Positions 7,634-23,481 of a DNA stretch of 27,861 nt are shown here, piece by piece; the first letter of the stretch is position 1; the number at the start of each line of letters is the position of its first letter. The position numbers and the translations under genes are program-made. The notes under the pieces are model-generated. The model was not told the DNA's origin. It saw nothing but the letters and a program-made list of their open reading frames with translations, and ran no database searches. Source of the stretch: a virus; IMG/VR virus record IMGVR_UViG_3300035250_000268, positions 1 to 27,861 of that record, one strand, 5' to 3'.

Positions 7634-10132
7634 TATCAAAATATCTTTTATCAGATAAGTAAAAGTAGAATACATATTTGGGATGATAAAAAAGGATATG
7701 CAGTTTATCCATTTAAACCATATGCTTATATAAAAGACTCAAAAGGTACGTTTACTTCTTTATATGGTGATAAGGTAAGAAGAATTGCTAAATCACAAAT
7801 AGAAGAATATGATACTTCTTTTGAATCTGATGTGTTAGCAGAAACAAGGTTTTTAGTAGATAACTATACAGATTCAGATGATGTATCAGAGGGTCATAGA
7901 GTTATGTTTTTTGATATTGAAGTAGAGGTTACAGAAGGTTTCCCTTCAGTAGAAAAAGCTGACAATGCAATTACTTCTATTGCTTTATATGATAAATTAA
8001 CTAAAGAATATCATTGTTATGTACTTGACGCTGAAAATGCAGTTAATAGTGAAAATTTTGATAATGCTACAGTAATAAAGTTTAAAGAAGAGAGAGATTT
8101 ATTAAATAAATTTTATCAAAAATATCTTGAGATATCACCAACAATTATTAGTGGTTGGAATAGTGATAGATTTGACATTCCTTATTTATATAATCGTTCT
8201 CGGAGGTTATTAGGTGAGGATGTTGCTAAATGTTTATCACCAATAGGTATTGTAGACTATAATAAACATAGAGGTGCTTATAAAATAGCAGGTGTATCTA
8301 GCTTAGATTATCTTGAACTATATAAAAAACTTACTTTTGGTGAAAGGTCTTCATATAGATTAGATGATATTGGAAATTATGAAGTAGGTATAAAAAAAGT
8401 TTCATATGATGGTACATTGGATGATTTATATTATAATAATAGGAATAAGTTTGTAGAGTATAATATAAATGACGTTGTTATTCTTGAAAAACTTGATGAG
8501 AAGTTAGATTTTATTGGTATTGCTAGAGCTATTTGTCATTTGGGTCATGTTCCATATGAAGATGTATATTATTCATCACGATTTTTAGAAGGTGCTATTC
8601 TTGTATATCTTAAAAAACTTGATATTGTTGCGCCAGATAAGAAAAAAGTAAATAAAGAATTAATGAACAATGGTGATAAGTTTTCAGGAGCATATGTACA
8701 AGAACCAATAAAAGGTAGACATGAGTGGATTTATGATTTAGATATTACTTCAATGTATCCATCAATTATTATGACATTGAATATTTCTCCTGAAACAAAA
8801 CTTGGAAGGTTAACAGGTTGGAATTCAGAAGAATTTGTTAAAGGAGTAGATAAAACATATACTATAGAAGATGATTCAGGAAAAGAAAGTGCTAAACTAA
8901 CTACAGCAGAGTTTAAGAACTTTTTAAAAGATAATAATGTATCTGTATCTACTAATGGTGTGTTATATACACAAGATAAAAGAGGGTTAATTCCAACTTT
9001 GTTGGAAAAATGGTTTGATGATAGAGTAGAATTTAGAAAATTAGCAAAGAAGTTCGCTGAAGAGGGTGATAAAGAGAAATATGCATACTTTGATAGACGA
9101 CAGTATATTCAAAAGGTTGTTCTAAATTCATTGTATGGTGTGTTGGGTTTACCTGTATTTCGTTTTTATGACTTAGATAATGCAGAAGCAACAACGACAA
9201 CGGGTGTTGAGTTAATTAAATATACTAAGAAGATAGCTAACTATTATTATAATTCTGTTTTGGAAGATTCGGAAGATCATTGTATATACATTGATACAGA
9301 TTCAGTTTTTTATTCTGCTGTTTCTATGATTCAAAAGAAATATCCACACATTAATGTTAAAGATGAAAATCTAATGATGGATAAGATTTTAGATATTGCC
9401 TCAGAGGTTCAAGAATATTTAAATAGTTCATATGATTTATTTGCTAAAAAGTTTCTTAATGTAGATAAACATAGATTTGAGATTAAGCAGGAATTGATTG
9501 CTAGAAGTGGGTTATTTGTTACAAAGAAAAGATATGGATTGAAAGTTGTTAATGATAATGGTGTTAAGATAAATAAACTTCATGTAAAAGGTTTAGATAT
9601 TGTTCGTTCAAGTTTTCCAATAGCTATGAAAGAATGTTTAACAAAAGTATTAGAAGATATATTAGCAAATGTACCTCAGAATAAGATTAATGAGTTTATT
9701 CTTAATTTTAAGAAATCTATGAAGTTGAAAAACTATGATACTATTGCAATGCCAACTTCAGTTAAAAATGTTAAAAAATATGTTCAGAGGGGTGATGGTA
9801 GATTGTTAGCTAAAAAGGGTGCACCTGTTCATGTTAAATCAGCAATAAATTATAATAACTTTTTATTGTCAAGTAAACTTGAAGCAAAGTATCCTTTAAT
9901 TGGAAACGGTGAAAAGATTAAGTGGATGTATTTAAAAGACAATCCATTTAAATTTGAGACTTTATGTTATAAAGGACATGAGGATCCTCAACAAGTGTTA
10001 GATTATATAAAAGAGTATATTGATACCGATAAGATATATAAGCAAGCACTTAGTAAAAAAATAGTAATGTTATATGATGCATTAAAATGGGAAGAACCAA
10101 ATGATGATTTTGGTTTTAATAAATTCTTTTAA
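7631..10132 (+). CDS. 43: Family B DNA polymerase gp43
   Basis: This is the replicative polymerase with 3'-5' proofreading. Counting from ATA at 7631 it has 833 residues (T4 gp43 has 898). The exonuclease motifs are DIE at 95-97, NSDRFD at 177-182 and YNIND with Asp281. The polymerase motifs are A, DITSMYPS at 371-378; B, KVVLNSLYG at 495-503; and C, DTDS at 555-558. The first 67 codons precede any ATG, GTG or TTG but clearly encode the family N-terminal domain: IYQNI aligns with T4 FYISI, and FTSLYGDK with T4 YKDIYGKN. A start at GTG 7832 would delete this region, so I favour ATA at 7631. A base error turning ATG into ATA is the alternative. The C-terminus DDFGFNKFF resembles a clamp-binding tail. 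The clamp gene follows after 51 bases. Confidence 0.93.
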   Translation: MYQNIFYQISKSRIHIWDDKKGYAVYPFKPYAYIKDSKGTFTSLYGDKVRRIAKSQIEEYDTSFESDVLAETRFLVDNYTDSDDVSEGHRVMFFDIEVEVTEGFPSVEKADNAITSIALYDKLTKEYHCYVLDAENAVNSENFDNATVIKFKEERDLLNKFYQKYLEISPTIISGWNSDRFDIPYLYNRSRRLLGEDVAKCLSPIGIVDYNKHRGAYKIAGVSSLDYLELYKKLTFGERSSYRLDDIGNYEVGIKKVSYDGTLDDLYYNNRNKFVEYNINDVVILEKLDEKLDFIGIARAICHLGHVPYEDVYYSSRFLEGAILVYLKKLDIVAPDKKKVNKELMNNGDKFSGAYVQEPIKGRHEWIYDLDITSMYPSIIMTLNISPETKLGRLTGWNSEEFVKGVDKTYTIEDDSGKESAKLTTAEFKNFLKDNNVSVSTNGVLYTQDKRGLIPTLLEKWFDDRVEFRKLAKKFAEEGDKEKYAYFDRRQYIQKVVLNSLYGVLGLPVFRFYDLDNAEATTTTGVELIKYTKKIANYYYNSVLEDSEDHCIYIDTDSVFYSAVSMIQKKYPHINVKDENLMMDKILDIASEVQEYLNSSYDLFAKKFLNVDKHRFEIKQELIARSGLFVTKKRYGLKVVNDNGVKINKLHVKGLDIVRSSFPIAMKECLTKVLEDILANVPQNKINEFILNFKKSMKLKNYDTIAMPTSVKNVKKYVQRGDGRLLAKKGAPVHVKSAINYNNFLLSSKLEAKYPLIGNGEKIKWMYLKDNPFKFETLCYKGHEDPQQVLDYIKEYIDTDKIYKQALSKKIVMLYDALKWEEPNDDFGFNKFF

Positions 10133-10133
10133 T

Positions 10134-10176
10134 TTGGAGAAATAATATGATACTTATATATATGTATATAAAGGAG
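10134..10176 (+). promoter_or_regulatory. Leader of the clamp gene: promoter-like element and ribosome-binding site
   Basis: TTGGAG (10134-10139) is 17 bases from TATATA (10157-10162), a possible but poor sigma70-type match. GGAG at 10173-10176 precedes the gp45 ATG at 10184 by seven bases. TTATATATAT followed about 20 bases later by GGAGTTAC also occurs before the small ribbon-helix-helix-like gene (16576-16601), suggesting a shared expression element. Confidence 0.35.
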
Positions 10177-10191
10177 TTACAAAATGGATAA
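10147..10191 (+). CDS. Possible 14-codon leader peptide upstream of the clamp
   Basis: An ATG at 10147 has GGAG (10136-10139) seven bases upstream. It opens a frame of 14 codons (MILIYMYIKELQNG) ending in TAA at 10189-10191. The stop overlaps the first codons of gp45 in another frame, and the gp45 Shine-Dalgarno lies inside the small frame. This arrangement would suit translational coupling or a control peptide. Short frames like this also arise by chance in A/T-rich leaders, so the call is tentative. Confidence 0.3.
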   Translation: MILIYMYIKELQNG

Positions 10192-10915
10192 ACAAACGTT
10201 GATGGGATTCATCAATAGGTTTTATTTAGGTGGGCAAACTCAATCAGCACCTGTAAAATCAACAAAAGACACACTTAGTTGTGCATTTATCAACTCAGCA
10301 AAAAGTTGTGTTGGTGATATTGTTTTAGCTAAGAATGGAATTGGTGATTATGAAATGGGGCTGTATGAGATTCAAGACTTAATTAAACTAATTAGTGTAT
10401 TGGATGGTGATATGGATGTTGATGTTAAAACTGTAGGTGAAGTAGCATCACAGTTAGTCCTTTCACAAAAAAATACTAAAGCAAGAATAAATTATGGTCT
10501 TGCTAGATTGGATGTAGTTCAGAAGAAACCAGATTTATCAAATGTTCCTGAGTTCACATTAGAACTTAAACTTGATAAGAAGTTCATTAGCACATTTATT
10601 TCAGGTAAAAGTGCGTTAAGTGAAGTTGCAACATTTGCTGTATTAGCAGATGGTAAAGAAGCAAAGGTTGTAATAGGTTATAGTTCTACAACACAATCTA
10701 ATAAAGTTACAATCCCTGTAGAATGTGGTAAAGTAGATAGTTTTGAAGAGGCTGTATTATTTGATGCAGATACTTTCAAAGAGATATTACTTGCTAACAG
10801 AGATTGTGAATCTTCAACTCTTTACATTTCAGATAAAGGGTTAGCTAAAGTTAATTTCAAGGTAGATAATTTCGATTCTACATACATACTAGTTGCAAAA
10901 ACAACAGTAGACTAA
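10184..10915 (+). CDS. 45: Sliding clamp gp45 (polymerase processivity factor)
   Basis: This is the ring-shaped trimeric clamp that tethers gp43 to DNA and, in T4, also activates late transcription. The 243 residues are close to T4 gp45 (228). The assignment rests on overall pattern: an alternating strand/helix composition without catalytic motifs, a central MGLYEIQDLIKLISVL segment and a C-terminal STLYISDKGLAKVNFKVD segment like the clamp fold. Its position between the polymerase and the clamp-loader genes supports this. In T4 the order is 45-44-62-regA-43. Here the clamp follows 43 and is separated from 44 by three extra genes, and no regA is recognised. The start has GGAG seven bases upstream. 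The stop overlaps the ATG of the Mom-like gene (TAATG). Confidence 0.87.
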   Translation: MDKQTLMGFINRFYLGGQTQSAPVKSTKDTLSCAFINSAKSCVGDIVLAKNGIGDYEMGLYEIQDLIKLISVLDGDMDVDVKTVGEVASQLVLSQKNTKARINYGLARLDVVQKKPDLSNVPEFTLELKLDKKFISTFISGKSALSEVATFAVLADGKEAKVVIGYSSTTQSNKVTIPVECGKVDSFEEAVLFDADTFKEILLANRDCESSTLYISDKGLAKVNFKVDNFDSTYILVAKTTVD

Positions 10916-11673
10916 TGGAAAATACTGTAGATAAATCAAAAGTTTATCTACAAGAGATAGACAAAAAGACTGCGAAGGAAATGATTGTAAAACATCATTA
11001 TTCGCATAGAGGTTCTTCTTGTAGATACGCTATAGGAATATATTATAAGTCAGATAATCCTCATCCTTTTTTTAAGGATACGAGTGAGGAAAAACTCATT
11101 GGGTGTATGACTTATGGTTATCCTGTAGGAAGAACTGTATTGGGATCTATGTTTAATGAAAACGTTAAATTAGAAACTAATAATATTTTGGAATTGACAA
11201 GATTATTTATACATGATGGTTATGGTAAAAATATTGAATCATATTGTATTTCTCAATCATTTAAATGGTTGAAAAAACATGATGAAAATGTTAAAACATT
11301 AATAAGTTATGCAGATCCTGATGTATTACATTTAGGTGGTATTTATAAAGCTACTAATTGGTTGTATCAGGGTGCAGGATTAAATTTAATGCCAAATTAT
11401 TCAATATCTTTAACAAAGGATCCATATGAATGGATACATAGTAGAACTGTTTCATCAAGATTTGGTAGTCATAATATAATAAAGTTAAAAGAAGCAGTTG
11501 GACATACGTTTTGGAGAAGAAGAGAACCTGAAAAACATAGGTACATTTACTTCTTAGGTAGTAAAAAAGAGAATAAAAAGTTTATGAAGAATTTGAAGTA
11601 TGAAACTAAACCGTATCCTACAAATGCAGAAGAGTATTTACCGCCAATAGAAGAACATAAAGGGAGTTTATAA
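10915..11673 (+). CDS. Mom-like DNA-modification protein, copy 1
   Basis: The protein resembles the phage Mu Mom family, GNAT-fold proteins that convert adenine in DNA to a methylcarbamoyl derivative and so block restriction. Family features visible in the 252 residues are HHYSH at 27-31, an LIGCMTYGYP strand near 61-70, ELTRLFI near 93-99, and a SYADPDVLHLGGIYKATNW block at 131-149 with Asp134. The closing RYIYFLGSKK and KPYP segments are also typical. HYSH and the (Y/F)AD aspartate are shared with the second Mom-like gene at 14221. The gene starts in the gp45 stop and is followed by a membrane-protein gene after three bases, so it is expressed with the replisome. The family assignment is good; the exact chemistry and base are inferred. 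Confidence 0.75.
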   Translation: MENTVDKSKVYLQEIDKKTAKEMIVKHHYSHRGSSCRYAIGIYYKSDNPHPFFKDTSEEKLIGCMTYGYPVGRTVLGSMFNENVKLETNNILELTRLFIHDGYGKNIESYCISQSFKWLKKHDENVKTLISYADPDVLHLGGIYKATNWLYQGAGLNLMPNYSISLTKDPYEWIHSRTVSSRFGSHNIIKLKEAVGHTFWRRREPEKHRYIYFLGSKKENKKFMKNLKYETKPYPTNAEEYLPPIEEHKGSL

Positions 11674-11676
11674 AAT

Positions 11677-12018
11677 ATGAATAAATTATTAGCAGCTATG
11701 ATATTGTCTGTATTGGGGCATATAATAGCATTTTTTCATATGAATGCACAGTTTAAATGGGAATGGGCTAAATCACAATGGTGGGTAATATTAGTAGGGC
11801 TTCCAATAAGTTATCTATTTTATTATTCAACAAGATATTCATTTGAATATTTTGGATATTATTGGAACATAAGATTGATTGGTTTTGGTATGGGAACATT
11901 TATATTTGGTTTAATGACGTGGGGAATATTAGGAGAAGCACCAAATGCGAAAGTTATGGTAAGTTTAGCTTTAGCATTAATAATAATTTTAATACAAATG
12001 ACTAATGTGGTGAAATGA
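11677..12018 (+). CDS. Small multi-pass membrane protein
   Basis: The 113-residue product is mostly hydrophobic, with about four likely membrane helices: residues 4-20 (LLAAMILSVLGHIIAFF), about 35-53, about 64-85 (including LIGFGMGTFIFGLMTWGIL) and 94-110 (VSLALALIIILIQM). Basic residues sit in the short linkers. The small size and four-helix layout recall small multidrug-resistance-type or phage inner-membrane proteins, but no transport motif is evident. GGAG at 11663-11666 precedes the ATG by ten bases. The stop overlaps the next start (ATGA). A membrane protein among replication genes is unusual; it could anchor replication complexes or transport a metabolite, both speculative. Confidence 0.75.
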   Translation: MNKLLAAMILSVLGHIIAFFHMNAQFKWEWAKSQWWVILVGLPISYLFYYSTRYSFEYFGYYWNIRLIGFGMGTFIFGLMTWGILGEAPNAKVMVSLALALIIILIQMTNVVK

Positions 12019-12587
12019 AAGTTAAAACAAGAATAGGTATAGATATAGATGGAGTGCTTAGAGATTTTTCTTGGCAATTACATAACTATATGTCCGTTAA
12101 TTACCCCGAATCAATTATAAAAGATGCTATAGATGATTGGGATTATCAGAATTGTTTTAAAGGTTGGGATAAAAAATCTTTACAAGAATTATATTGGGAT
12201 AAGTATCCAGAATTGTTTTTTAGAGATTCACCACCTATATATGGTGCTATAGAACAAATGCATGCTTTATTTGAGTGGGGTAGTGGAAAAGGTTATAAAT
12301 TTGTTTGTATATCTTCTCAGAGAACACCAGGAACTTATGCTTCTTTAGAGTGGTTGGGAAAACACGCATTAAGTTTTAGAGAAGTATATTTTGTTAGTGG
12401 TGGTGATAAGTGGAAAATAGATGTTGATTGGTTAGTAGATGATTCACCATCTAATTATCAGGCTTGGTTAAAGGGTAGAGGTGATGATTACGGATATATT
12501 TTAATGGATGCACTATATAATCAACACATTAAACCTACTAATAGGGTAAAAGAATTAAAAGAGATAAAGGAAATAATAGAATGGTAA
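12015..12587 (+). CDS. HAD-family 5'(3')-deoxyribonucleotidase-like protein
   Basis: This is a haloacid-dehalogenase-type phosphatase, probably acting on nucleoside monophosphates. The family motifs are in order: motif I DIDGVL at 10-15 (nucleophile Asp10, acid/base Asp12), motif II with Ser100/Ser101 (VCISSQ), and motif III Lys132 or Lys134 followed by WLVDDSP with Asp142/Asp143. A helical cap lies between motifs I and II (residues 20-90). The 190-residue length fits small deoxyribonucleotidases. Placed among clamp, modification and reductase genes, it could remove particular dNMPs or balance pools, but the substrate cannot be read from the sequence. Its start overlaps the membrane gene and its end overlaps gp44. 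Confidence 0.75.
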   Translation: MKVKTRIGIDIDGVLRDFSWQLHNYMSVNYPESIIKDAIDDWDYQNCFKGWDKKSLQELYWDKYPELFFRDSPPIYGAIEQMHALFEWGSGKGYKFVCISSQRTPGTYASLEWLGKHALSFREVYFVSGGDKWKIDVDWLVDDSPSNYQAWLKGRGDDYGYILMDALYNQHIKPTNRVKELKEIKEIIEW

Positions 12588-13498
12588 ATCATAGTTTATG
12601 GGTAGAACAGTATAGACCAACTGAATTAGAAAACTATGTTGGTAATACACATTTAAAATCTAAGGTAGAAGCTTATCTTACAAATAGTGATATTCCTCAT
12701 TTATTATTATATGGAAGAGCAGGTACAGGTAAAACAACACTTGCTAAACTGATTGTTAAGAATATTAAATGTGATTATCTATACATTAATGCTAGTGATG
12801 AGAATAATGTAGAAACTGTAAGAACAAAAGTAAAACAGTTCGCATCTACGATTGGTTTTACAGATATGAAGGTAATTATCTTAGATGAATGTGATTACAT
12901 TACACCTAACGCACAAGCCGCTTTGCGTAACCTTATGGAGACTTTTAGTAAGTACTGTAGGTTTATTCTAACCTGTAACTATGCAGAGAGAATCATTAAT
13001 CCGATACAAAGTCGTTGTCAAATTTTTGAAATTATACCACCATCTAAGACAGAAGTAGCTCAAAGATTGAATCAGATTTTAAAAGAGGAAGGTGTTAAAC
13101 ACGAGTTAGAAGATTTAAAAATATTGATTGATTCTAATTATCCTGATATTCGTAGAACAATTAACGCAGCTCAAAGAAATGTGGTTGATTTACAATTAAA
13201 ATTAGATGTAGAGAGTATTACTCAAAATGATTATAAGTTAAAAGTGTTAGATATTTTAGAGAATCAAGATAAGAAAAACGCATTTAAAAATATAAGACAG
13301 TTATTAGCAGATAATGCTATTAGAGACTTTTCAGATTGTTTTCGTTTGTTATATGATAATGTAGATTCTTATGGTAAAGGTCATATAGCAGAAATAATAT
13401 TAATATTAGCGAGATATGAACTATCAGATAGCCAGGTAGTTGATAAAGAAATAAACTTTATGGCTATGTTAATTGAAGTATTGGGAGTTATAAAATGA
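12581..13498 (+). CDS. 44: Clamp loader ATPase subunit gp44
   Basis: This is the large clamp-loader subunit. Four copies with one gp62 open gp45 and place it on primer-template DNA using ATP. The 305 residues (T4: 319) begin with the family's WVEQYRPTELENYVG. Walker A is GRAGTGKT at 45-52, Walker B ends in DECD at 102-105, sensor-1 is TCNYAE at 131-136, and the SRC arginine-finger motif is at 144-146. Sensor-2 (DIRRTINAAQ) and a helical collar domain follow. The ATG lies seven bases before the end of the nucleotidase gene, and the stop overlaps the next start (ATGA), giving tight coupling on both sides. Confidence 0.95.
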   Translation: MVNHSLWVEQYRPTELENYVGNTHLKSKVEAYLTNSDIPHLLLYGRAGTGKTTLAKLIVKNIKCDYLYINASDENNVETVRTKVKQFASTIGFTDMKVIILDECDYITPNAQAALRNLMETFSKYCRFILTCNYAERIINPIQSRCQIFEIIPPSKTEVAQRLNQILKEEGVKHELEDLKILIDSNYPDIRRTINAAQRNVVDLQLKLDVESITQNDYKLKVLDILENQDKKNAFKNIRQLLADNAIRDFSDCFRLLYDNVDSYGKGHIAEIILILARYELSDSQVVDKEINFMAMLIEVLGVIK

Positions 13499-13749
13499 GT
13501 ACAAAACCAATGAAACCACTAAAGAAACCAGCACAAAAGGTTGATTTATCACAAGCAGATACTATGAAATGTGAGAAATGTTCTAATTATCTTTTTATCA
13601 CATCATATGTATTAAAAAGAATATCTGCTTTAATATCACCCACAGGGCAAGAAGGTATAGTTCCAATTCAAGTTTATAGTTGTGGTAATTGTGGCCATGT
13701 ACCTGCTAAGTTAATGGAAGGTAGTGGAGTTGAAGAAGAACTTAGTTAA
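13495..13749 (+). CDS. Zinc-ribbon protein of unknown function (84 aa)
   Basis: The protein has a Lys/Pro-rich N-terminal tail (residues 1-16), then two CxxC pairs, Cys26/Cys29 and Cys63/Cys66. The latter pair lies in YSCGNCGHVP, a classic zinc-ribbon knuckle. The intervening 33 residues form a strand-rich loop. GGAG at 13484-13487 is seven bases before the ATG. It sits between the two clamp-loader subunits and overlaps both genes (ATGA with gp44, 26 bases with gp62). A role in replication or late transcription is suggested by position only. Confidence 0.8.
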   Translation: MSTKPMKPLKKPAQKVDLSQADTMKCEKCSNYLFITSYVLKRISALISPTGQEGIVPIQVYSCGNCGHVPAKLMEGSGVEEELS

Positions 13750-14224
13750 GAGAAAAGGATTATTCGATCATATTAAGCACATAACATCTGTACAAAGTTC
13801 CAATTATTGGGATACTATTACAGATGAAGATAAGAAAACGTGGTCGAATTATATGGTTCATAGATTTTTATCTATGAGAACAGATTTTTTAGATGTGGTG
13901 AACGAGATACAGATGTATAATTTATCACCAGAAATAATATATAAATTTTATTCTGATATTATTCCAAAGGGAAAATATTGGTTAAAATATATTAAAGGGA
14001 GAAAACAAATGGATTATCCAAGATGGTTGTTAGATGTTGTGGCAAAAGAGTTAGAGGTAAGTTTAAGAGAAGCTGTAGATGCAGTTGATATGTATATGTT
14101 AACTGAAGGTGGTCAAGTAGAACTTACTGAGTTGTTACAATCATATGGTGTAGATCGCAAGAAGTTAAAAGAAGTGGGCTTGCAATCTGATACTTGGTTA
14201 AGTGAAATCAAAGAAGACGAATGA
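13724..14224 (+). CDS. 62: Clamp loader small subunit gp62
   Basis: This is the non-ATPase subunit that completes the T4-type clamp loader. The 166 residues (T4: 187) have the family pattern GLFDHIKHIT...YWDTITDEDKKTWSNYMVHRFLSM near the N-terminus, followed by all-helical sequence. It directly follows the gp44 region, as in T4. No ATG is available: GTG at 13724 gives the frame used here, while TTG at 13730 has the better-placed Shine-Dalgarno (GGAAGG at 13716-13721, eight bases away) and would shorten the protein by two residues. Either start lies inside the zinc-ribbon gene. The stop overlaps the second Mom-like gene (ATGA). Confidence 0.88.
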   Translation: MELKKNLVKRKGLFDHIKHITSVQSSNYWDTITDEDKKTWSNYMVHRFLSMRTDFLDVVNEIQMYNLSPEIIYKFYSDIIPKGKYWLKYIKGRKQMDYPRWLLDVVAKELEVSLREAVDAVDMYMLTEGGQVELTELLQSYGVDRKKLKEVGLQSDTWLSEIKEDE

Positions 14225-14859
14225 GTTTAGACGGTTATACCGTAGATCAAGTACCTAGAAAATCCATTCAATCCTTTATAGAAAAGTATCATTATAGTCA
14301 TAGTTGTAATGGTATACAAGGTTTAGAATGTTTTGCTTTGTTTAGACCAGGTAAATTTAATATACCTGAAATGGTAGGTGCTATGATGTATGCTATACCA
14401 TCAATGCCAAATACGGCTAAGAAGTATAATCCTATAAATCCCGATAGATGTGTAGAATTGAGAAGATTAGTTAACGTAGATGAGGCTCCCCCGAATAGTG
14501 AAAGTTTTTTTGTAGGAAAAACTATTAAATGGTTAAGACAAAATACAAATTATGAAGTTATAGTTTCCTTTGCAGATTTACACTATGGACATTCAGGAGT
14601 TATTTATAGAGCTAGTAATTTTGAATATGTCGGACAAACATCTCCAGGTAGAGTTTTAATGGTAGATGGTAAGGAATATCATAGTAGGTCTTTAAGTCAA
14701 CCGATTAAACCATACAGTAGAGAAATTAGACGTAGGTGGGAAGCTAAAGATCCTAATATATTTTTTGTAAACAGAAAGTGTAAAAATATTTATGTTTATT
14801 ATTTGAACAAAGGTATTAAGAAGAAGATAAAAAGAATAGAAGCTAATGAAAAGAATTAG
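14221..14859 (+). CDS. Mom-like DNA-modification protein, copy 2
   Basis: This second Mom-type protein (212 aa) is clearly diverged from the one at 10915. Shared features are YHYSH at 23-27, a MVGAMMYAIPS strand, ELRRLVNVDEAPPNSES at 79-95, a TIKWLRQN helix, and SFADLHYGHSGVIYRASNF at 116-134 with Asp119. The C-terminus is basic (REIRRRWEAKD, IKKKIKRIEANEKN) and contains an IYVYYLNK strand. It is closer to the commonly annotated Mom consensus (ELRRL...SES, ADxxxGHxGxIYRASNF) than copy 1. It is coupled to gp62 by ATGA and overlaps the next nuclease gene by 14 bases. It probably modifies bases in phage DNA; the exact product is unknown. Confidence 0.75.
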   Translation: MSLDGYTVDQVPRKSIQSFIEKYHYSHSCNGIQGLECFALFRPGKFNIPEMVGAMMYAIPSMPNTAKKYNPINPDRCVELRRLVNVDEAPPNSESFFVGKTIKWLRQNTNYEVIVSFADLHYGHSGVIYRASNFEYVGQTSPGRVLMVDGKEYHSRSLSQPIKPYSREIRRRWEAKDPNIFFVNRKCKNIYVYYLNKGIKKKIKRIEANEKN

Positions 14860-15709
14860 TTATAGTCAATACAGCCAATGGGCTGTGTGTCCTCATAAAT
14901 GGAAATTAAATTATATAGATGAATTGAGGACATTTAAGGGTAATATACATACGTTGTTTGGTTCTGCTATGCATGATGTATTACAGACTTATTTAACTAT
15001 AATGTATAATGATACAATTAAGAAAGCTGATTCATTACCATTAGCAGATATGTTACTACATCGAATGAAACATTACTACAAAGAAATAGTAAAAGATTTA
15101 CATGGTGAGGAAATATCAAGTCAAGAAGAAATGCAAGAATTTTATGTACATGGTATGGCTATAATAGAATGGTTTGTTAAGAAAAGAGGAATGTATTTTA
15201 ATAAAAAAGGATATGAGTTAATAGGCATTGAAGTTCCTATTGAATATAAATTACCGAATGATATTGAGTTTGTTGGATATATAGATGTTCTTTTATACGA
15301 TACTGTAAGAGATAAGTATAAAATCATAGATATCAAGACTTCCACAATGGGTTGGAATAAGTGGGCTAAAGCAGATAAGACTAAGACAGATCAATTATTA
15401 TTATATAAACAGTTCTATGGTGCTCAACATGATATACCATTGGATAAGATTGAGATAGAGTATTTTATTGTAAAACGTAAACTATATGAGAAAGTAGATT
15501 TCCCTCAACGTAGAGTACAAACTTTTGTACCTGCAAATGGAACACCAAGTCTTAATAAAGTTACACGTAATGTTAAATCTTTTATTGATGAATGTTTTAT
15601 TGGTGGAGAATACAACCAATCACATATTTATAGAAAAGAAGCATCAAAGAAAAATTGTAGATTCTGTGAGTTTAATCAAACTGAATATTGTGATGCAGGA
15701 GTCAAATAA
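14846..15709 (+). CDS. PD-(D/E)XK nuclease with Fe-S cysteines (Cas4/RecB-like)
   Basis: This is a DNA exonuclease-like protein of the RecB/AddB/Cas4 group. Catalytic elements in order are His43 (GSAMHDVL), Asp147 (VGYIDVLL), Asp162-Ile-Lys164 (IIDIKTS) and the Gln183/Tyr187 motif (QLLLYKQ). Four cysteines have the Fe-S arrangement: Cys15 near the N-terminus (AVCPHKW) and Cys271, Cys274 and Cys282 near the C-terminus (CRFCEF...YC). The 287 residues make a complete stand-alone domain without a helicase. It overlaps the second Mom-like gene, so the two are co-expressed. Roles in DNA-end processing, recombination or degradation of host DNA are all possible. Confidence 0.85.
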   Translation: MKRISYSQYSQWAVCPHKWKLNYIDELRTFKGNIHTLFGSAMHDVLQTYLTIMYNDTIKKADSLPLADMLLHRMKHYYKEIVKDLHGEEISSQEEMQEFYVHGMAIIEWFVKKRGMYFNKKGYELIGIEVPIEYKLPNDIEFVGYIDVLLYDTVRDKYKIIDIKTSTMGWNKWAKADKTKTDQLLLYKQFYGAQHDIPLDKIEIEYFIVKRKLYEKVDFPQRRVQTFVPANGTPSLNKVTRNVKSFIDECFIGGEYNQSHIYRKEASKKNCRFCEFNQTEYCDAGVK

Positions 15710-16606: not shown

Positions 16607-16798
16607 ATGGAAAGTAAATTAACGTCGGTTAAAGTTCTTACCGATTTATATAAAAAATTCAAAACTAAGAGCATAGAGGATGAGTTTACACTTCAAAAAT
16701 TGGTAAATCGCTCAATGGACTTATATTGTCATGATATGAGTTTTGAAAAAGTTATCAATGAATATTCAAACTTAATACAAAGCGGCAGTAGATACTAA
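16607..16798 (+). CDS. Small ribbon-helix-helix-like DNA-binding protein (63 aa)
   Basis: The sequence has an N-terminal strand (LTSVKVL), a helix (TDLYKKFKTKSIED), then the turn and second helix (FTLQKLVNRSMDLYCHD), the order seen in CopG/Arc-type repressors. The short remainder is helical. The in-frame ATG at 16592 would place the Shine-Dalgarno inside the gene; ATG 16607, with GGAG at 16594-16597 nine bases upstream, is preferred. The leader TTATATATATA (16576-16586) resembles that of the clamp gene. The stop overlaps the first glycosyltransferase ATG (TAATG), so it heads the sugar operon and might regulate it, an inference from position. Confidence 0.65.
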   Translation: MESKLTSVKVLTDLYKKFKTKSIEDEFTLQKLVNRSMDLYCHDMSFEKVINEYSNLIQSGSRY

Positions 16799-18186
16799 TG
16801 CCAAAGAAGAAAATTCTTTTACTGTCAGATGACCTACGAATGTCTAGCGGGGTTGGAACAATGTCAAGAGAATTTGTCATGGGAACTATACATCATTACG
16901 ATTGGGTACAGTTAGGTGGTGCTATAAAACATCCTGAAGAGGGCAAAGTTGTAGACATGAATGAATCTGTTAGAGAAGAAACAGGTGTTGAAGATGCTAA
17001 TCTTAAAATATTTCCTATCAATGGGTATGGTAATGAAGAGTTAATAAGACAATTAATGTTTCACGAACGACCCGATGCCATTTTGCATTACACCGATCCA
17101 AGATTTTGGCAGTGGTTATATCAAATGGAACATGAAATTAGACAAAATATACCTATTTTTTATTATAATATATGGGATGATTTACCTTATCCATTTTATA
17201 ATGAAAACTATTATGAATCTTGTGATTTGATTATGAACATATCTAGACAGACAGATAATATTGTTAGGAATGTTTGTAGGAATAAACCAAGAACTGATTG
17301 GGATTGTACTTATATTCCTCATGGTATAAATGAGAAATGGTTTCATCCTATAGATAAAAGTCATGAAGACTATTCAAATTTACAAAAGTTTAGAAATCAT
17401 ATTTTTAATAATAAAGATTATAAATTTGTAGTTTTTTGGAATAACAGAAATATTCGTAGAAAATTGCCTGGTGATGTTGTTATGGCATTCAAGACATTAT
17501 GTGAAATGGTAGGTGAAGAAAATCATAAACATTGTGCATTAATTATGCACACATCACCTATAGATGATAATGGTACAGATTTACCTAAACTTATAGATCA
17601 TTTATTACCTGCCAGTATAGGAGATAATATATATTTTTCACATGATAAGTTAGATAATAAACAAATGAATTTTATGGTTAATATAGCGGATGTAACAATT
17701 AATATAGCATCTAATGAGGGATTTGGATTAGGTACTTGCGAATCATTGATGGCAGGAACACCAATTGTTGTGAATGTTACAGGTGGATTACAAGATCAAT
17801 GTGGGTTTAAAAAGGAAGATGGTTCGTATCTTACTGTAGACGATTATACAGATGAATTTCAATCAAATCATACAGGTCGTTATAAAGATCATGGTGAATG
17901 GGTAAAACCTATATGGCCCGCTTGTCGTTCACTACAAGGTTCACCACCTACACCATATATTTTTGATGATAGACCAAAATTTGAAGAAGCAGGAGAAGCT
18001 TTGAAATATTGGTATGATATGACACCTGAGAAGAGAAAAGAATGTGGTTTAAAAGGTATGGAATTTGTTAAACGTGAGGATATTGGTATGACGGCGGAAC
18101 ATATGAGTAACAGATTTATAAAAGATATGGATACTGCATTTGATAAATGGGAACGACGTAAACGATACGCCATGTATAAGGTATAG
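16798..18186 (+). CDS. GT4-like glycosyltransferase (GT-B fold)
   Basis: This 462-residue protein probably transfers sugar from a nucleotide donor. It has an N-terminal Rossmann-type domain beginning KKILLLSDDLRMSSGVG, an IPHGINEKWFHP linker segment near 173-184, a second domain starting KFVVFWNNRNIRRK, and the EX7E signature with Glu307 and Glu315 (NEGFGLGTCESLMAG) followed by TPIVV. There is no membrane helix, so it acts in the cytoplasm. It is the first of a run of sugar enzymes and is coupled to the small ribbon-helix-helix-like gene. The acceptor (surface glycan, virion protein or DNA) cannot be told. Confidence 0.85.
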   Translation: MPKKKILLLSDDLRMSSGVGTMSREFVMGTIHHYDWVQLGGAIKHPEEGKVVDMNESVREETGVEDANLKIFPINGYGNEELIRQLMFHERPDAILHYTDPRFWQWLYQMEHEIRQNIPIFYYNIWDDLPYPFYNENYYESCDLIMNISRQTDNIVRNVCRNKPRTDWDCTYIPHGINEKWFHPIDKSHEDYSNLQKFRNHIFNNKDYKFVVFWNNRNIRRKLPGDVVMAFKTLCEMVGEENHKHCALIMHTSPIDDNGTDLPKLIDHLLPASIGDNIYFSHDKLDNKQMNFMVNIADVTINIASNEGFGLGTCESLMAGTPIVVNVTGGLQDQCGFKKEDGSYLTVDDYTDEFQSNHTGRYKDHGEWVKPIWPACRSLQGSPPTPYIFDDRPKFEEAGEALKYWYDMTPEKRKECGLKGMEFVKREDIGMTAEHMSNRFIKDMDTAFDKWERRKRYAMYKV

Positions 18187-18194
18187 GAGTTAGA

Positions 18195-19550
18195 ATGACA
18201 AAACCTTTTATTTTATTTCAAGCACCAGTAGCAACAAGAAGTGGTTATGGTGCACATAGTAGAGATTTAGTTTTAGAGTTATTAAAAACTGATAAGTATG
18301 ATATTAAAATAGCATCACTTCGTTGGGGAAATACACCAATGAATGCGTTAAATTCAAAGAATCCAGATGATAAGTTAATACTTGATAATTTATTAGATAG
18401 TCCTGAATTACCTAGACAACCAGATTTAGGTATTCAAGTAACAGTTCCAAATGAATTTAATCCCATTGGTAAAAAGAATCTTGGAATTACTGCAGGTCTT
18501 GAATCAACTGCTATACCAAAACATTGGATAGATGGTTTTGATAGAATGGATTTAAATATTGTACCTTCTCAATTTGTAAAAAAAGTTTGTGAGTCAACGG
18601 AATATGAAGAAAATAGAGATGGAGAAACTACTCGTAAAGGTATAAAAATTCAGAAGCCAGTAGAAGTTTTATTTGAGGGTTACGATGAAAATGTTTATGG
18701 CAAAACCAATAAGTTCAGTCCAGAAATAGTAAAAGAGTTTAATAATATAAGAGAAAATTTTTGTTTTTTGTTTGTAGGGCATTGGTTACAAGGAAATATG
18801 GGTGAAGATAGAAAAGATGTTGGTATGTTAATTAAGACATTCTTAGAAACTTTTAAAAATAAAGGTAAAAAGAAGAGACCAGCACTAATTGTAAAAACAG
18901 GTGGTGCTACATTTTCAGTAATAGATAGAGAAGAAGTTCTTGATAAGATTAGGTCAATTAAAAAATCAGTTGATGCTAAGATAATGCCTAATATTTATTT
19001 TATACATGGAGATTTTGATGATGATGAGATGAATCAACTGTATAACCACCCTAAAGTAAAAGCACATATTACTTTTACACACGGTGAAGGATTTGGTCGT
19101 CCACTACTTGAGGCATCATTAAGTGGTAAACCTATTATATTTCCTAATTGGAGCGGTCATGTAGATTTCTTACCACCAAGTTTAAAGACGGCATTAAAGG
19201 GTAGTGTAATACAAACACCAAAAAGAGCATTTCCAAAGGAAATGTTTGTTGATGGTATGGGTTGGTATGGAATTGATTATAATAATGCAACTAATGTTAT
19301 GAGAGATGTGTTTTTAAACTATAAAAAATATACACCAATATTTAATCAGTTAGCTAAGTCAAATAAAGCTAAGTTTACAAGAACTATAATGGGAAAGAAA
19401 TTGGTAGAGATAGTTGATAGTATGGTTGGTGAAATTCCACAAGAAGTTAGTTTGAAGTTACCAAAATTGAAAAAGATTAGTGGTGGACAGACAGGTGCTA
19501 TTAAACCACCACCACAAAGTATAAAATTACCTAAATTAAGGAAAATGTAA
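18195..19550 (+). CDS. GT4-like glycosyltransferase with C-terminal motif repeat
   Basis: This is a 451-residue GT-B enzyme. Its N-terminal RSGYGAHSRDL loop resembles the donor/acceptor loop of the preceding enzyme. The EX7E signature is Glu298 and Glu306 (HGEGFGRPLLEASLSGKPIIFP). FLFVGHWLQGN near 191-201 opens the second domain. The last 33 residues hold two near-copies of a short basic motif, SLKLPKLKK (419-427) and SIKLPKLRK (442-450), joined by a Gly/Pro-rich linker. These lie outside the enzyme fold and look like a peptide for binding a partner. GGAG at 18186-18189 is five bases before the ATG, and the stop overlaps the next ATG (TAATG). Confidence 0.85.
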   Translation: MTKPFILFQAPVATRSGYGAHSRDLVLELLKTDKYDIKIASLRWGNTPMNALNSKNPDDKLILDNLLDSPELPRQPDLGIQVTVPNEFNPIGKKNLGITAGLESTAIPKHWIDGFDRMDLNIVPSQFVKKVCESTEYEENRDGETTRKGIKIQKPVEVLFEGYDENVYGKTNKFSPEIVKEFNNIRENFCFLFVGHWLQGNMGEDRKDVGMLIKTFLETFKNKGKKKRPALIVKTGGATFSVIDREEVLDKIRSIKKSVDAKIMPNIYFIHGDFDDDEMNQLYNHPKVKAHITFTHGEGFGRPLLEASLSGKPIIFPNWSGHVDFLPPSLKTALKGSVIQTPKRAFPKEMFVDGMGWYGIDYNNATNVMRDVFLNYKKYTPIFNQLAKSNKAKFTRTIMGKKLVEIVDSMVGEIPQEVSLKLPKLKKISGGQTGAIKPPPQSIKLPKLRKM

Positions 19551-20044
19551 TGGAAAGAGTAATAGTATGTTCTGTATGTAAAGATATGGATTCGTGTTTT
19601 GAAGAGATACAAGATAATTTTAGTAGTTTTATGTGTTTCAATTGTGGTTATATGAGTGATACGAGATATAGAGCAGGTAGTGTTGAGTTATTGGATAATT
19701 TAAACAAGAGTCCACAATTGATACAAGATTTGCAGTATCATGATGAACAAAAAGATATAGTTTGGTTTCCTTGTGTTATTAATATGGGAGAATTAGGAGT
19801 AATTTATCCCGATGAAGACCTACAAGAGAAAGCTGCGTTTAGAGCTAAAGAAAAGAAAAGTTATGTTTGGAAATATGCTAAAGTTGTGGATGTTCCTGAA
19901 GATGAACGTGAAAAGTATAATAATTATGATAAGAGACTTGATGTAGAAAATGCACAAGTCTATGATAAACATGAATTTTTAAACGCTTGTCAAGATATGG
20001 GTATAATTAAGGATTTGAAAGATGGCATTTCTACCCCGACATAG
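19550..20044 (+). CDS. Cys-rich zinc-ribbon protein of unknown function (164 aa)
   Basis: The N-terminus has Cys7 and Cys10 (CSVC), Cys16, then Cys29 and Cys32 (CFNCGY), consistent with a zinc ribbon. The rest is acidic and probably alpha/beta, with VWFPCVINMGELGVIYPDE near the middle and an ENAQVYDKHEFLNACQDMG helix close to the end. No enzyme motif is visible. It starts in the stop of the glycosyltransferase gene and overlaps the next gene by 23 bases. Lying inside the sugar cluster does not prove a sugar function. Confidence 0.75.
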   Translation: MERVIVCSVCKDMDSCFEEIQDNFSSFMCFNCGYMSDTRYRAGSVELLDNLNKSPQLIQDLQYHDEQKDIVWFPCVINMGELGVIYPDEDLQEKAAFRAKEKKSYVWKYAKVVDVPEDEREKYNNYDKRLDVENAQVYDKHEFLNACQDMGIIKDLKDGISTPT

Positions 20045-20510
20045 ATCAAGAATACTGAATAGAGTTCCCGTTTCAAAAAGTACATTAAGAAATGGAACTA
20101 TAATTGAGTTTCGTTATCAGAAAAAAGATGGTACAGGTGGTTTATATATGGCTATTGTTTTGAGTGTGTGGCCACCCGCAGGTGGTATTACACAAAAAAA
20201 GGTTCACGCATTATCTTTAGATGAGGTTTCAGATAATAGATTAATGAGATTTGTTAAACAAATTGGAAGACCATCTTTGGATGAAGATGTTAGAACAAAA
20301 ACTGAACAAGAAATAAGTAAGTTTATTTTACCAAAAGGTCGTTCAGCACCAAAAAGATTTTATAAAATAAAGTTAGATAAGATACCAGGTATGACAGCAG
20401 GAGCATATAGAACATTTCACTTAAAAAATATGAGTCAAATAAGACTTATAGATTATGATTTTGAAAACGTTGTACCTGAAAGGTTTATGGGTCAAATAAG
20501 TGAAGATTAG
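20022..20510 (+). CDS. Unknown basic protein (162 aa)
   Basis: The protein starts with a basic tail (LPRHRSRILNRVP) and continues with strand-rich sequence: IIEFRYQKKDG, LYMAIVLSVWPP, KVHALSLDEVSDNRL, then RFYKIKLDKIPGM, AYRTFHLKNMSQIRLIDYDFE. AAGGA (20009-20013) eight bases before the ATG supports the start. The YRTFHLKNM...IRLIDYDF ending gives the impression of a conserved phage family, possibly a small beta-barrel, but I cannot name it. It overlaps genes on both sides. Confidence 0.72.
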   Translation: MAFLPRHRSRILNRVPVSKSTLRNGTIIEFRYQKKDGTGGLYMAIVLSVWPPAGGITQKKVHALSLDEVSDNRLMRFVKQIGRPSLDEDVRTKTEQEISKFILPKGRSAPKRFYKIKLDKIPGMTAGAYRTFHLKNMSQIRLIDYDFENVVPERFMGQISED

Positions 20511-21147
20511 TTATGCAATTACAGTTTGTAATGAATTACAAGAGCTCAAAAAGTTAGTTACTTTTTTATTGGATCATAAGAGAAAAGATGATGAGATAGT
20601 TATAACTTATGATTCCAATAATGGTAATGAAGAAGTAGAGGATTATCTTAGATATAATCATATTAATGCAGGTCCTTGTGAACCTGGCTATGATATTCAA
20701 TTTGTTTGGGAAGGTTTTGAGTTTAAAGGAAACTTTTCAGATTTAAAAAATCATACGAAATCAATGTGTAGTGGAGATTATATATTTCATTTAGACGCAG
20801 ATGAATATCCACATGAAATATTAATGGAACAATTACCAAGTATAATAGAAATGAATGATGTAGATTTAATATGGGTGCCAAGAGTAAATACAGTAACAGG
20901 TATTAATGATGAATGGATACAAAAGTGGGGTTGGAGAGTTAGTGAAAAAGGTTGGGTAAATTATCCTGATTACCAAGCAAGAGTTTTTATAAATAAAGAG
21001 GATATTAAATGGAAAGGAAAAGTACATGAGGTTATAGGTGGATGTAAAACATATGCACATTTACCACCACATGAAGAGTTATCATTATATCATCCTAAAA
21101 CAATAGAGAAACAGATAAAACAGAATGAACTTTACCAAAGTTTATGA
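20500..21147 (+). CDS. GT2-like glycosyltransferase (GT-A fold)
   Basis: The 215-residue protein opens with a typical GT2 strand, ISYAITVCNELQELKKLV, and carries the metal/nucleotide-sugar motif Asp99-Ala-Asp101 (FHLDADEYP). A later WVNYPDYQARVFINKEDIKWKGKVHE segment resembles GT2 enzymes of the waaE/sunS type. The start codon is GTG, 11 bases before the end of the previous gene, with only a weak upstream GGG. The C-terminus is short (KTIEKQIKQNEL), consistent with a compact catalytic domain. It overlaps the next gene by 23 bases. Confidence 0.82.
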   Translation: MKISYAITVCNELQELKKLVTFLLDHKRKDDEIVITYDSNNGNEEVEDYLRYNHINAGPCEPGYDIQFVWEGFEFKGNFSDLKNHTKSMCSGDYIFHLDADEYPHEILMEQLPSIIEMNDVDLIWVPRVNTVTGINDEWIQKWGWRVSEKGWVNYPDYQARVFINKEDIKWKGKVHEVIGGCKTYAHLPPHEELSLYHPKTIEKQIKQNELYQSL

Positions 21148-22675
21148 ATTTGAATCTTTAATCGGAGATACTTATGGTGTTTTCAAATATGAAGATTTAG
21201 ATTTTAATAGTTACAAACAAGTCAAACATAAAGATAGTCGTTGGGGAGAAGAAAATCACAATAGAACTATCTATCAGACAGATGAATACTTTGTCAAAGT
21301 ATGGGATGAAGATTATATCAGAGCAAACACATTACAAAGTGCATTCGCAAGTGGTTTTTATGACAGTACAATTGTACCAAATTTTGTTGGTATAATATAT
21401 GATGAAAATGATATTTGTAGAGGTTATATAACTAAAGAATCTACACCATCAGAAGAACATTTTGAAGAACTTTTCAAAAGAATAAAATTAAAAACTATAA
21501 ATACTAATTACTTTACTTACGATTTTTGTAAAAACCACACATATGAATTTGAAGGAAAGCCAACTCTAATAGATTTAGAAGGAATATATCATATAGACGA
21601 GTACACTAATCTAAATAAACATCACTACGAAACTTATCTTTCAGCTGGAAATTTTATAGAGGATAATACTTATAAAACATTTATTGAAAACTTATTGATT
21701 ACAGTACCAATCAACTTAGAATATTTTCTGAATATGGAGTTACAACATGGTAGTGGTGGTAAAGAGATTATACATAATGACAAACAAATCAAAACTGTAA
21801 GAGAAGCTTTAGAATATTTTTCGAATAAGAATAATGTAAAAGAAACTGAAAAGAAAGTTAATAAAGAAAATCATCAATATTGGAATGGTATGTGGGCTGA
21901 ATTTAGAAATGATGTTCAAGGTCATCACGAAAGAGGTTGGGTGAATATGACTAAAGAATATTATGATTCTTTAGAACCAATGACTGATGAAGAAATAAAG
22001 ATAACTTTGATTGATGATCCTGTTAATTTTGATGGTGGGTGGATAAAACATAGTTATCATAGAGCAGTTGCTATGATTGGTAGATTAATTAATGGTAAAA
22101 AATATATTCCATTTCATATGCTGAAGCATAAGATTTATGAAACAAAGACAGGTAATAAAAATTGTATAGATACGGTAGATTATATAAATTATATTGAAAT
22201 GATGGATGTAATGGGATTTCCAAGAGAAGAGTATGCAATTTGTAATAGTGCTATCTTAGCAGTTATGGGTGTTGATGCAAGAAAGAATAAGAATGGTGAT
22301 TTAGATTTAGTCTTCAGTAGTAAGTTAAGAAAACAAATTGAAGATGAGAATATAGAGTTACCAAAAGAGATACATCCATTTGGTAAAGATAGTGATAAGT
22401 TTAGATTCTTTGGTTGTAAGGATGATGATGATTTGGTATATAACTATAGTGTAAACATTAATGGATATAATTTCGCAGAACCAAGATTCTATTTTAGTAG
22501 AATGCATATGTTAAAACCATCAGCACATAGAAGTTTAGAAGAGAATAGAAAGATAAAAGAAGAAGGTAAAAAAGGTGTTGAAAAATTTATTGAAATGGAA
22601 AGTTACAAAGGTTATCCGTTTAATGAAATAACTGAAGAACAATGGGGATTTGATTTGATAAAGGATGTTGGATAA
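21125..22675 (+). CDS. Multidomain protein: kinase-like N-terminus, nucleotidyltransferase-like C-terminus
   Basis: This 516-residue protein appears to have at least two domains. Residues 1-160 resemble a small sugar/aminoglycoside-kinase-like fold: Lys58 in FVKVW as possible ATP-binding lysine, then Asp133 and Asn137 (YDFCKNHT) and Asp150 in LIDLEGIY in the catalytic-loop and metal-binding order. Residues 293-333 (ITLIDDPVNFDGG...YHRAVAMIGR...YIPFHML) recall a ParB/Srx-type substrate loop. Residues 382-402 (GVDARKNKNGDLDLVFSS) recall a nucleotidyltransferase active-site loop with a DLD pair. All of these are motif-level impressions, not confirmed homologies. Its place between glycosyltransferases suggests activation or phosphorylation of a sugar or other small group. 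The stop overlaps the next ATG. Confidence 0.6.
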   Translation: MNFTKVYEFESLIGDTYGVFKYEDLDFNSYKQVKHKDSRWGEENHNRTIYQTDEYFVKVWDEDYIRANTLQSAFASGFYDSTIVPNFVGIIYDENDICRGYITKESTPSEEHFEELFKRIKLKTINTNYFTYDFCKNHTYEFEGKPTLIDLEGIYHIDEYTNLNKHHYETYLSAGNFIEDNTYKTFIENLLITVPINLEYFLNMELQHGSGGKEIIHNDKQIKTVREALEYFSNKNNVKETEKKVNKENHQYWNGMWAEFRNDVQGHHERGWVNMTKEYYDSLEPMTDEEIKITLIDDPVNFDGGWIKHSYHRAVAMIGRLINGKKYIPFHMLKHKIYETKTGNKNCIDTVDYINYIEMMDVMGFPREEYAICNSAILAVMGVDARKNKNGDLDLVFSSKLRKQIEDENIELPKEIHPFGKDSDKFRFFGCKDDDDLVYNYSVNINGYNFAEPRFYFSRMHMLKPSAHRSLEENRKIKEEGKKGVEKFIEMESYKGYPFNEITEEQWGFDLIKDVG

Positions 22676-23481
22676 TGTTATATATACTTACAGTACATTT
22701 CAAAGATAAGTGGATAGATATTCAGAAAAGACAATTAGAAAGATTTATATCAGAACCATATAAAGTTTATACAAGATTAGGTGATGGAGTAAAACAAGGT
22801 ACTACTACAGTAAATTATGAAAAGAATAAACATAAGTTTGACGGTGCTATACCAGGAGCAGGACACGTGTCTGAATCATTTGGTAAAATTATAGATTATA
22901 TAACAAAGAATGAAGAAATAAAATCAACTGATAAGATACTATTGTTGGATTCAGATGCTTTTCCAATAGTATCCATATCAGATTTTATGAATGAGAAGTT
23001 AAAAGAGTATCCATTTATAGCAGTACAAGAACCAATGCACGAGTGGGATAGAAACCCATTGTATATAATACCACACTATTGCTTTATGATGTTTAAAGCT
23101 AAACATATTTTAGAGGATAACTTAACTGATTGTCTTAGAGAAATTATTGTAGATAAAAATAGTAATTGGTGGTATGGAATTGTACAATGGTTAACAGAAC
23201 GTGGATATGATTACTACCCATTAACAAGAAGTAATAAAGAAGATTTACATGAATTATATTATGGAATTTATAATGATATGGTTTATCATCATTGGGCAGG
23301 CTCAAGGAATATGATTACAAGGCCAGATAGAATGAGAGCTCAACATTCGGGAGAGGATGTTGAAGATATAGCAAAAGAAAACCACGAAGTGTCAAATCAA
23401 GTTTTTGAGAGAGTATCAAGTGAAACAGATATAGATAATATGATGGCATATTTGAAAGGTGAGTATGAAGAGAATAACTAA
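22675..23481 (+). CDS. GT-A-like glycosyltransferase
   Basis: The 268 residues begin with a strand (LYILTVHF) and a nucleotide-sugar-binding-like region. The metal motif is Asp92-Ser-Asp94 in KILLLDSDAFP. A hydrophobic core segment, NPLYIIPHYCFMMFKAKHI, follows, and the YNDMVYHHWAGSRN segment around 200-213 supplies a histidine often found late in GT-A folds. The last 40 residues are acidic and probably helical. It is coupled to the preceding gene by TAATG. The sugar and acceptor are unknown. Confidence 0.7.
   Translation: MLYILTVHFKDKWIDIQKRQLERFISEPYKVYTRLGDGVKQGTTTVNYEKNKHKFDGAIPGAGHVSESFGKIIDYITKNEEIKSTDKILLLDSDAFPIVSISDFMNEKLKEYPFIAVQEPMHEWDRNPLYIIPHYCFMMFKAKHILEDNLTDCLREIIVDKNSNWWYGIVQWLTERGYDYYPLTRSNKEDLHELYYGIYNDMVYHHWAGSRNMITRPDRMRAQHSGEDVEDIAKENHEVSNQVFERVSSETDIDNMMAYLKGEYEENN

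Follow-up and report, generated by a model that had tools for sequence, protein, structure and literature searches.

The window analyzed here is a stretch of 27,861 nucleotides, positions 1 to 27,861 of the virus record IMGVR_UViG_3300035250_000268 in IMG/VR. A reading of its letters alone (here called the original prediction) had proposed that two divergent Mom-like DNA modification genes lie inside its replisome cluster. Mom of phage Mu targets the N6 position of adenine, uses acetyl-CoA and iron, and makes a methylcarbamoyl adenine that blocks restriction. Binding of acetyl-CoA and iron by Mom was reportedly described by Karambelkar et al. in 2020. A Mom profile had two matches in the window, and we refer to these genes as MOM1 and MOM2.

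10915..11673, plus strand: MOM1 (protein P0001), 252 residues, ATG start; Mom-family DNA modification enzyme, long subfamily
14221..14859, plus strand: MOM2 (protein P0002), 212 residues, ATG start; Mom-family DNA modification enzyme, short subfamily

Both proteins belong to the Mom family. This assignment is secure because of their profile scores, their confident structural models, and the rank of Mu Mom as the best solved structure for each. The Pfam Mom profile (PF25680, cut-off 27.1 bits) matched MOM1 with 162.3 bits (E value 1.5e-47) and MOM2 with 131.3 bits (E value 4.6e-38). PHROG 1384, "Mom-like DNA modification protein," also matched both (E values 9.9e-46 and 1.5e-50, respectively), and in NCBIfam neither protein had a match over the cut-offs. 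The motifs that had been read from the sequence were all located in both proteins: HYSH at residues 28 to 31 of MOM1 and 24 to 27 of MOM2, ELTRL at residues 93 to 97 of MOM1 with its counterpart ELRRL at 79 to 83 of MOM2, and the block YAD...GGIYKATN in MOM1, which is FAD...GVIYRASN in MOM2. The strong divergence claimed elsewhere was also borne out. By BLASTP the two proteins are 29% identical over 146 columns (E value 6e-14), a similarity that is beyond chance.

Structure prediction placed both proteins with Mu Mom, as the original prediction had anticipated. AlphaFold2 models were confident, with a mean predicted local distance difference test score of 92.6 for MOM1 and 93.6 for MOM2. The Mu Mom structure 8bv8 ranked first for MOM1 (Z 20.3, root mean square deviation 2.8, 173 residues aligned; next chain, Z 11.5) and for MOM2 (Z 19.9, root mean square deviation 2.7, 172 residues aligned; next chain, Z 14.9). 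The MOM2 sequence also reached 8bv8 by phmmer (E value 1.5e-11). Identity to Mu Mom is about 23% over structurally aligned residues for both proteins. Both have the GNAT fold, with Z of at least 8 for 589 of 998 aligned chains with MOM1 and for 849 of 998 with MOM2, and the chains listed in both comparisons are mostly GNAT acetyltransferases.

Neither protein looks like a dead partner because both keep every nearly invariant residue of the family. Conservation was assessed with 84 representative Mom proteins out of 140 distinct ones (18 of the 84 from isolates), and 25 columns were at least 90% conserved. MOM1 and MOM2 each retain 25 of 25. The family motifs HY, E-L-x-R, N-x-E-S (with the S124 serine), S-x-x-D, and G-x-x-Y-x-A-x-N are present in both. 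All 84 proteins have serine at the Mu S124 position, and the title of 8bv8 describes an "inactive mutant S124A." Both proteins match Mu Mom in fold and in active-site residues, the S124 position among them. An inactive member of the window pair is not supported, and the earlier suggestion that one protein might be a regulatory partner is weakened.

The phage is T4-like, and the two genes lie in a plus-strand cluster with the order PolB, clamp, MOM1, a 113-residue open reading frame (ORF), an NT5C-type nucleotidase, gp44, a Zn-ribbon-like gene, gp62, MOM2, and a PD-(D/E)XK nuclease. The assigned neighbors are as follows.

7832..10132, plus strand: family B DNA polymerase (PolB, gp43-like); 47.7% identity by tblastn to the annotated PolB of Microcystis phage Mel-JY01
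10184..10915, plus strand: sliding clamp (gp45-like), from a profile of 25 relatives; 5' of MOM1 and overlapping it
12581..13498, plus strand: clamp-loader large subunit (gp44-like); PHROG 168, E value 3.7e-82
13495..13749, plus strand: 84-residue CxxC...CxxC protein between gp44 and gp62; Zn-ribbon-type matches, all below cut-off
13724..14224, plus strand: clamp-loader small subunit (gp62-like); PHROG 225, E value 2.2e-14; PF16790, E value 5.6e-5, below cut-off
14846..15709, plus strand: PD-(D/E)XK nuclease directly 3' of MOM2; PF12705, E value 1.9e-19; PHROG 69 exonuclease, E value 1.2e-22

As a single sequence, the clamp ORF had no Pfam match and no convincing PDB match. The profile of its 25 relatives matched three PDB entries at E values up to 1, and all are sliding clamps (RB69 gp45, 0.0015; T4 gp45, 0.25; 6drt, 0.28). 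With PolB, the clamp, and both clamp-loader subunits around them, the Mom genes do lie inside a replisome cluster.

Each Mom gene immediately follows the clamp or small clamp-loader gene next to which the original prediction had placed it, and overlaps that gene. The clamp stop and the MOM1 start share TAATG at 10915, and the gp62 stop and the MOM2 start share ATGA at 14221. These overlaps suggest that translation is coupled and that MOM1 and MOM2 are expressed along with the replisome genes, so coexpression is supported by the gene arrangement. The genes directly upstream are the clamp (MOM1) and gp62 (MOM2), rather than a com gene as in the Mu operon. Com had no match at E values up to 1 among the scanned neighbors, including the 84-residue Zn-ribbon-like ORF.

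The arrangement is kept in near relatives, with MOM1 after the clamp and MOM2 after gp62. We surveyed 153 loci labeled as this lineage, some with no Mom in the stretch; together they contain 148 different Mom sequences. For 33 MOM1-type sequences, the closest gene of a type found in the window, within 2.5 kb upstream, was the clamp; for 31 MOM2-type sequences it was gp62. Other Mom sites in relatives are between RNaseH and DnaB, between DnaB and ribonucleotide reductase (RNR), between gp44 and the Zn-ribbon gene, in tandem between DnaB and PolB, and near PolB. In records with three Moms, the third copy can sit elsewhere (G017 and G022; G and L numbers are our identifiers for records and loci). 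The constant context of the Mom genes is the replication cluster, not the clamp gene. C-terminal tails of the FGFNKFF type bind clamps; PolB ends in FGFNKFF, and no clamp-binding-type tail was seen by eye in MOM1 or MOM2. Because the sites vary and no tail was seen, we read the placement as expression shared with replication and not as proven docking to the clamp. Physical coupling to the moving fork is not supported.

MOM1 and MOM2 are under strong purifying selection and are constrained much like the replication machinery. Median ratios of nonsynonymous to synonymous substitution, over pairs of six near relatives, were 0.088 for MOM1 and 0.085 for MOM2, next to 0.097 for PolB, 0.083 for gp44, 0.066 for the clamp, and 0.130 for gp62. 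The median for a fast neighbor, ORF 15712, was 0.298. Mean identity to eight near loci was 80% for MOM1, 78% for MOM2, 77% for the clamp, 76% for gp44, and 59% for gp62. Both Moms are also maintained over greater distances: across 16 loci, MOM1 orthologs average 58% identity and the clamp 40%. When 14 MOM1 orthologs were set against 16 MOM2 orthologs, 31 columns were conserved and identical, including the active-site motifs, and 20 were conserved but different. Several of these fixed differences are in or just past the loop after the third strand (V71, G72, R73, and V75 in MOM1; S61, M62, P63, and T65 in MOM2). Shared columns together with fixed differences fit a common chemistry with different recognition.

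Our preferred interpretation, to which we give a probability of roughly 0.6, is that MOM1 and MOM2 are two nonredundant, jointly expressed Mom-type adenine modifiers that act in different sequence contexts and together widen protection. Both would be made along with the replication genes. By analogy with Mu Mom, each would transfer a methylcarbamoyl-type group, derived from an acyl-CoA, to N6 of DNA adenine. They would act in different short sequence contexts, rather than differ in adduct or timing. Together they would mask more adenines of an AT-rich genome (69% A+T) from host nucleases while it is being copied. The same phage is represented by a 216-kb record (G002; genes 99 to 100% identical), which had no match to PF01555, PF02086, PF00145, or PF00303 (N6/N4, D12, and C5 methyltransferase and thymidylate synthase types). 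Therefore, with respect to these families, the Moms are the only candidate DNA base modifiers.

Several points weigh against this interpretation. Three multi-Mom records (G011, G014, and G016) do match PF01555 and PF00303, so Mom is not always the lone type of modifier in this lineage. In G002, 13 of 16 palindromic tetramers and 55 of 64 palindromic hexamers are still rarer than expected. Modification therefore does not obviously remove the pressure from restriction. (GATC and CTAG each occur 0 times in 40,001 bases of Mel-JY01 [L123] that have no Mom match, and 102 and 58 times, both strands, in 40 kb of G002; the hosts of the two phages differ.) Only one Mom was seen in 4 of 22 related metagenomic records, which are possibly fragments. 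The nearest isolate, Mel-JY01, had no Mom match in 190,001 bases, in a scan that included no positive of its own but used the profile that matched 22 of 22 metagenomic records. Finally, nonredundancy is read from the maintenance of both genes and their fixed differences, and dose, timing, or ongoing replacement could keep two genes for a while.

We also asked how common paired Moms are. At the sensitivity used, one Mom per annotated phage is the rule. A tblastn search of annotated phages with MOM1 (E values up to 1e-3) found 319 places in 319 records, and one with MOM2 (E values up to 0.1) found 323 places in 322 records, with one record holding a second place. The 22 metagenomic records were picked from hits as related to this phage, so they are a nonrandom set that may include fragments; 18 of them have at least two Moms over the Pfam cut-off, and four of these hold three. 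One of the two Moms in G005 has an internal stop. A broader Mom scan added 72 loci with up to 10 kb on each side (the best 80 of 549 confirmed, minus 8 already in the set). At least two Moms were present in 8 of the 15 loci of the lineage, in 5 of the 18 whose replisome matches were weaker, and in none of the 39 that had no replisome matches. A locus was labeled as this lineage at a threshold of 45% identity for any one of four replication proteins, and several loci are near-copies. Two 5-kb loci from the MOM1 scan, also without replisome matches, held two (L080) and three (L021) Moms. MOM1 and MOM2 were both present in all eight near-relative loci that run past gp62 (L003, L005, L006, L008, L009, L010, L011, and L016). 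Some of these are near-copies of one another, and seven other near loci stop before that point. No relative was found in bacterial genomes searched with the single protein P0002. In the portion of the open-access literature that our survey covered, we met one possible two-Mom case, the prophage discussed below, and no account of two Moms in a T4-like phage.

The original prediction had called the two genes paralogues. They are indeed strongly diverged Mom relatives, but they are not duplicates that arose in this lineage. In a tree of Mom proteins, MOM2 falls with the short Moms of ICP1, VnaP, Darwin, PMBT8, K64-1, Phynn, phiSHEF2, S-SSM7, and AS-zj (Shimodaira-Hasegawa-like approximate likelihood ratio test [SH-aLRT], 97), and the corresponding 29-row side of a second tree, with AS-zj left out, had an SH-aLRT of 99. 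MOM1 groups with phage P12002L and tandem copies from other metagenomic phages (SH-aLRT, 84). The deep root is weakly resolved, and Mu is a long branch. Forcing the 14 MOM1 and 16 MOM2 orthologs into one clade, as in-lineage duplication predicts, cost 253 log-likelihood units (P value of the approximately unbiased test, 8e-57), and one clade of all 66 metagenomic rows was also rejected (P value, 4e-5). The tested groups were defined with the first tree already in view, and the tree used for testing omits five long-branch isolates (Mu, Pan3, MenE, Sorpresa, and AS-zj). With the single clade rejected, MOM1 and MOM2 belong to two old Mom subfamilies kept side by side and are not products of a recent duplication. 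MOM2 also appears to have been swapped between phages without its partner, because in L083, L084, and L086 a MOM2 80 to 81% identical to that of the window stands beside a MOM1 of 61% and a gp62 of 35% identity.

Other explanations for the pair were weighed. One possibility, which we put forward tentatively and consider well short of an even chance, is that two Moms (three elsewhere), sometimes beside a DruA-like gene, place different adducts or act as heterodimers on freshly copied DNA. If so, the masking would be divided among enzymes instead of being done by one enzyme with one mark. A second, that MOM1 and MOM2 are redundant and the later arrival only raises the dose or is taking the place of the earlier gene, is unlikely. 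In its favor, the site of MOM2-type genes varies: they occur after gp62, between RNaseH and DnaB, or between DnaB and RNR. However, purifying selection is equally strong on both, 20 differences are fixed, and both genes are maintained across the 16 divergent loci described above.

We also consider it improbable that MOM1 and MOM2 form a heterodimer in which each completes or steers the other, so that two genes make one enzyme. Such pairing of subunits is conceivable because PHROG 1384 (8bv8) is included, in the accessible part of a 2026 preprint, in a set of dimers whose structures have been validated by experiment (PMC13232217), and the two genes are kept together in near relatives. Some sister-lineage copies are altered as a specialized partner might be: the Mu D149 column is asparagine in 6 of 84 proteins, all of them sister-lineage copies, and the Mu H183 column is serine in 3 of 84 (L021:1873-2577, L023:8853-9557, and L116:10641-11357), which form their own tree group. 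The D149-to-N copies are in L047, L058, L073, L028, L067, and L036 (Mom at about 9977-10777 or 396-1199). These changes make a specialized partner conceivable in sister lineages but do not suggest one for the window pair. However, a D149-to-N copy is the only Mom seen in two records (L032 in G008 and L073 in G015), and some records, possibly fragments, have a MOM1-type protein (G008 and G015) or a MOM2-type protein (G019 and G020) as their sole Mom. Relatives of MOM2 are the single Mom found in many annotated phages, and the apparent exchange of MOM2 in L083, L084, and L086 took place without MOM1. It is very improbable that, like other GNATs, the proteins have substrates different from phage DNA bases, such as RNA, protein N termini, or small molecules, because although the GNAT fold is common to protein and small-molecule acetyltransferases, the Mom crystal structure ranks above all other aligned chains and the nearly invariant Mom residues are all kept.

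The interpretation of two nonredundant adenine modifiers can also be set against known Mom systems. Mu mom is a late, tightly held gene. Mu has a single mom, which overlaps the Com control gene (NC_000929 annotation), whereas the window has two genes in a replication cluster. This suggests that Mom can be part of a set of replication genes instead of being late as in Mu, and the pair suggests that phages can stack Mom enzymes. A pair that is diverged but intact in both members, with 31 shared and 20 fixed-different positions, gives a direct comparative handle on specificity (how Mom picks adenines) versus chemistry (how it makes its adduct). It makes specificity and redundancy, or why there are two, directly testable.

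ICP1, VnaP (Vibrio), Darwin (Corynebacterium), and PMBT8 (Staphylococcus) have Moms of the short MOM2 subfamily (42 to 47% identity). However, each has one Mom place at the sensitivity used, at about 5 kb or less from ribonucleotide reductase genes and not beside an annotated clamp. Polaribacter phage P12002L is the nearest annotated phage to MOM1 (46%) but is a 48.7-kb phage with one Mom place, which adjoins an annotated DNA methyltransferase. Mel-JY01, the best-ranked annotated phage by PolB, has the order PolB, hypothetical gene, HolB ATPase, hypothetical gene, and clamp loader A. It lacks a Mom match, and a hypothetical gene of about equal length occupies the position of the 84-residue CxxC ORF.

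Some features have precedents in the literature. A Mom for which no Com was found is already known from Riggi, according to an excerpt of the report (PMC3853051). In a prophage of Clostridium clostridioforme LM41, a table in the available portion of the paper lists ORFs "33,34" as PHROG 1384 Mom-like (PMC11318856). However, this is a prophage and not a T4-like replisome, the two neighboring ORFs could be one split gene, and that portion does not treat them as a pair. Jumbo phages, as large phages with a Mom domain, are another precedent, but there Mom is typically fused to endonuclease domains, as far as the accessible text goes (PMC7824862). The window Moms are free-standing, and a separate PD-(D/E)XK gene follows MOM2.

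A DruA-like gene of about 200 codons accompanies Mom genes in some relatives. It is directly 3' of MOM2 in four loci (L095:10620-11213, L110:6558-7172, L111:5882-6487, and L113:8309-8914), a similar gene is 5' of the clamp in two (L020:13335-13925 and L025:19134-19754), and a further DruA-like (PF14236) gene, next to MOM2 or the clamp, is at L115:9415-9996. PF14236 had no match at E values up to 1 among ten window proteins scanned, including MOM1 and MOM2. Four DruA-like proteins matched Pfam DruA with E values of 2.4e-10 to 5.6e-6, one of them below cut-off. All four also matched PHROG 1384 (2.3e-7 to 1.4e-4), and two matched Mom weakly (0.0015 and 0.0041). The group was linked to Mom by hhalign (93% and 89%), and its profile matched no PDB chain at E values up to 1. 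The DruA-like gene might link Druantia DruA to Mom. Of the 80 loci that carry it, 62 had no Mom in the stretch covered, so it does not accompany Mom consistently. In the sections available to us, DUF4338/DruA proteins have already been described as GNAT-like (PMC10853773), and DruA-like proteins of cyanophages have also been published (PMC12774648).

Two further observations concern the remainder of the genome. At positions 16798-27546 of the window, 3' of the replisome genes, there are ORFs that resemble glycosyltransferase or sugar metabolism genes, as judged from their translations. In G002, positions 184538-187327 encode a 930-residue protein with a signal-like start, part of which resembles what we take to be carboxypeptidase-regulatory-like domains of Bacteroidota-type outer membrane proteins, a weak hint about the host.

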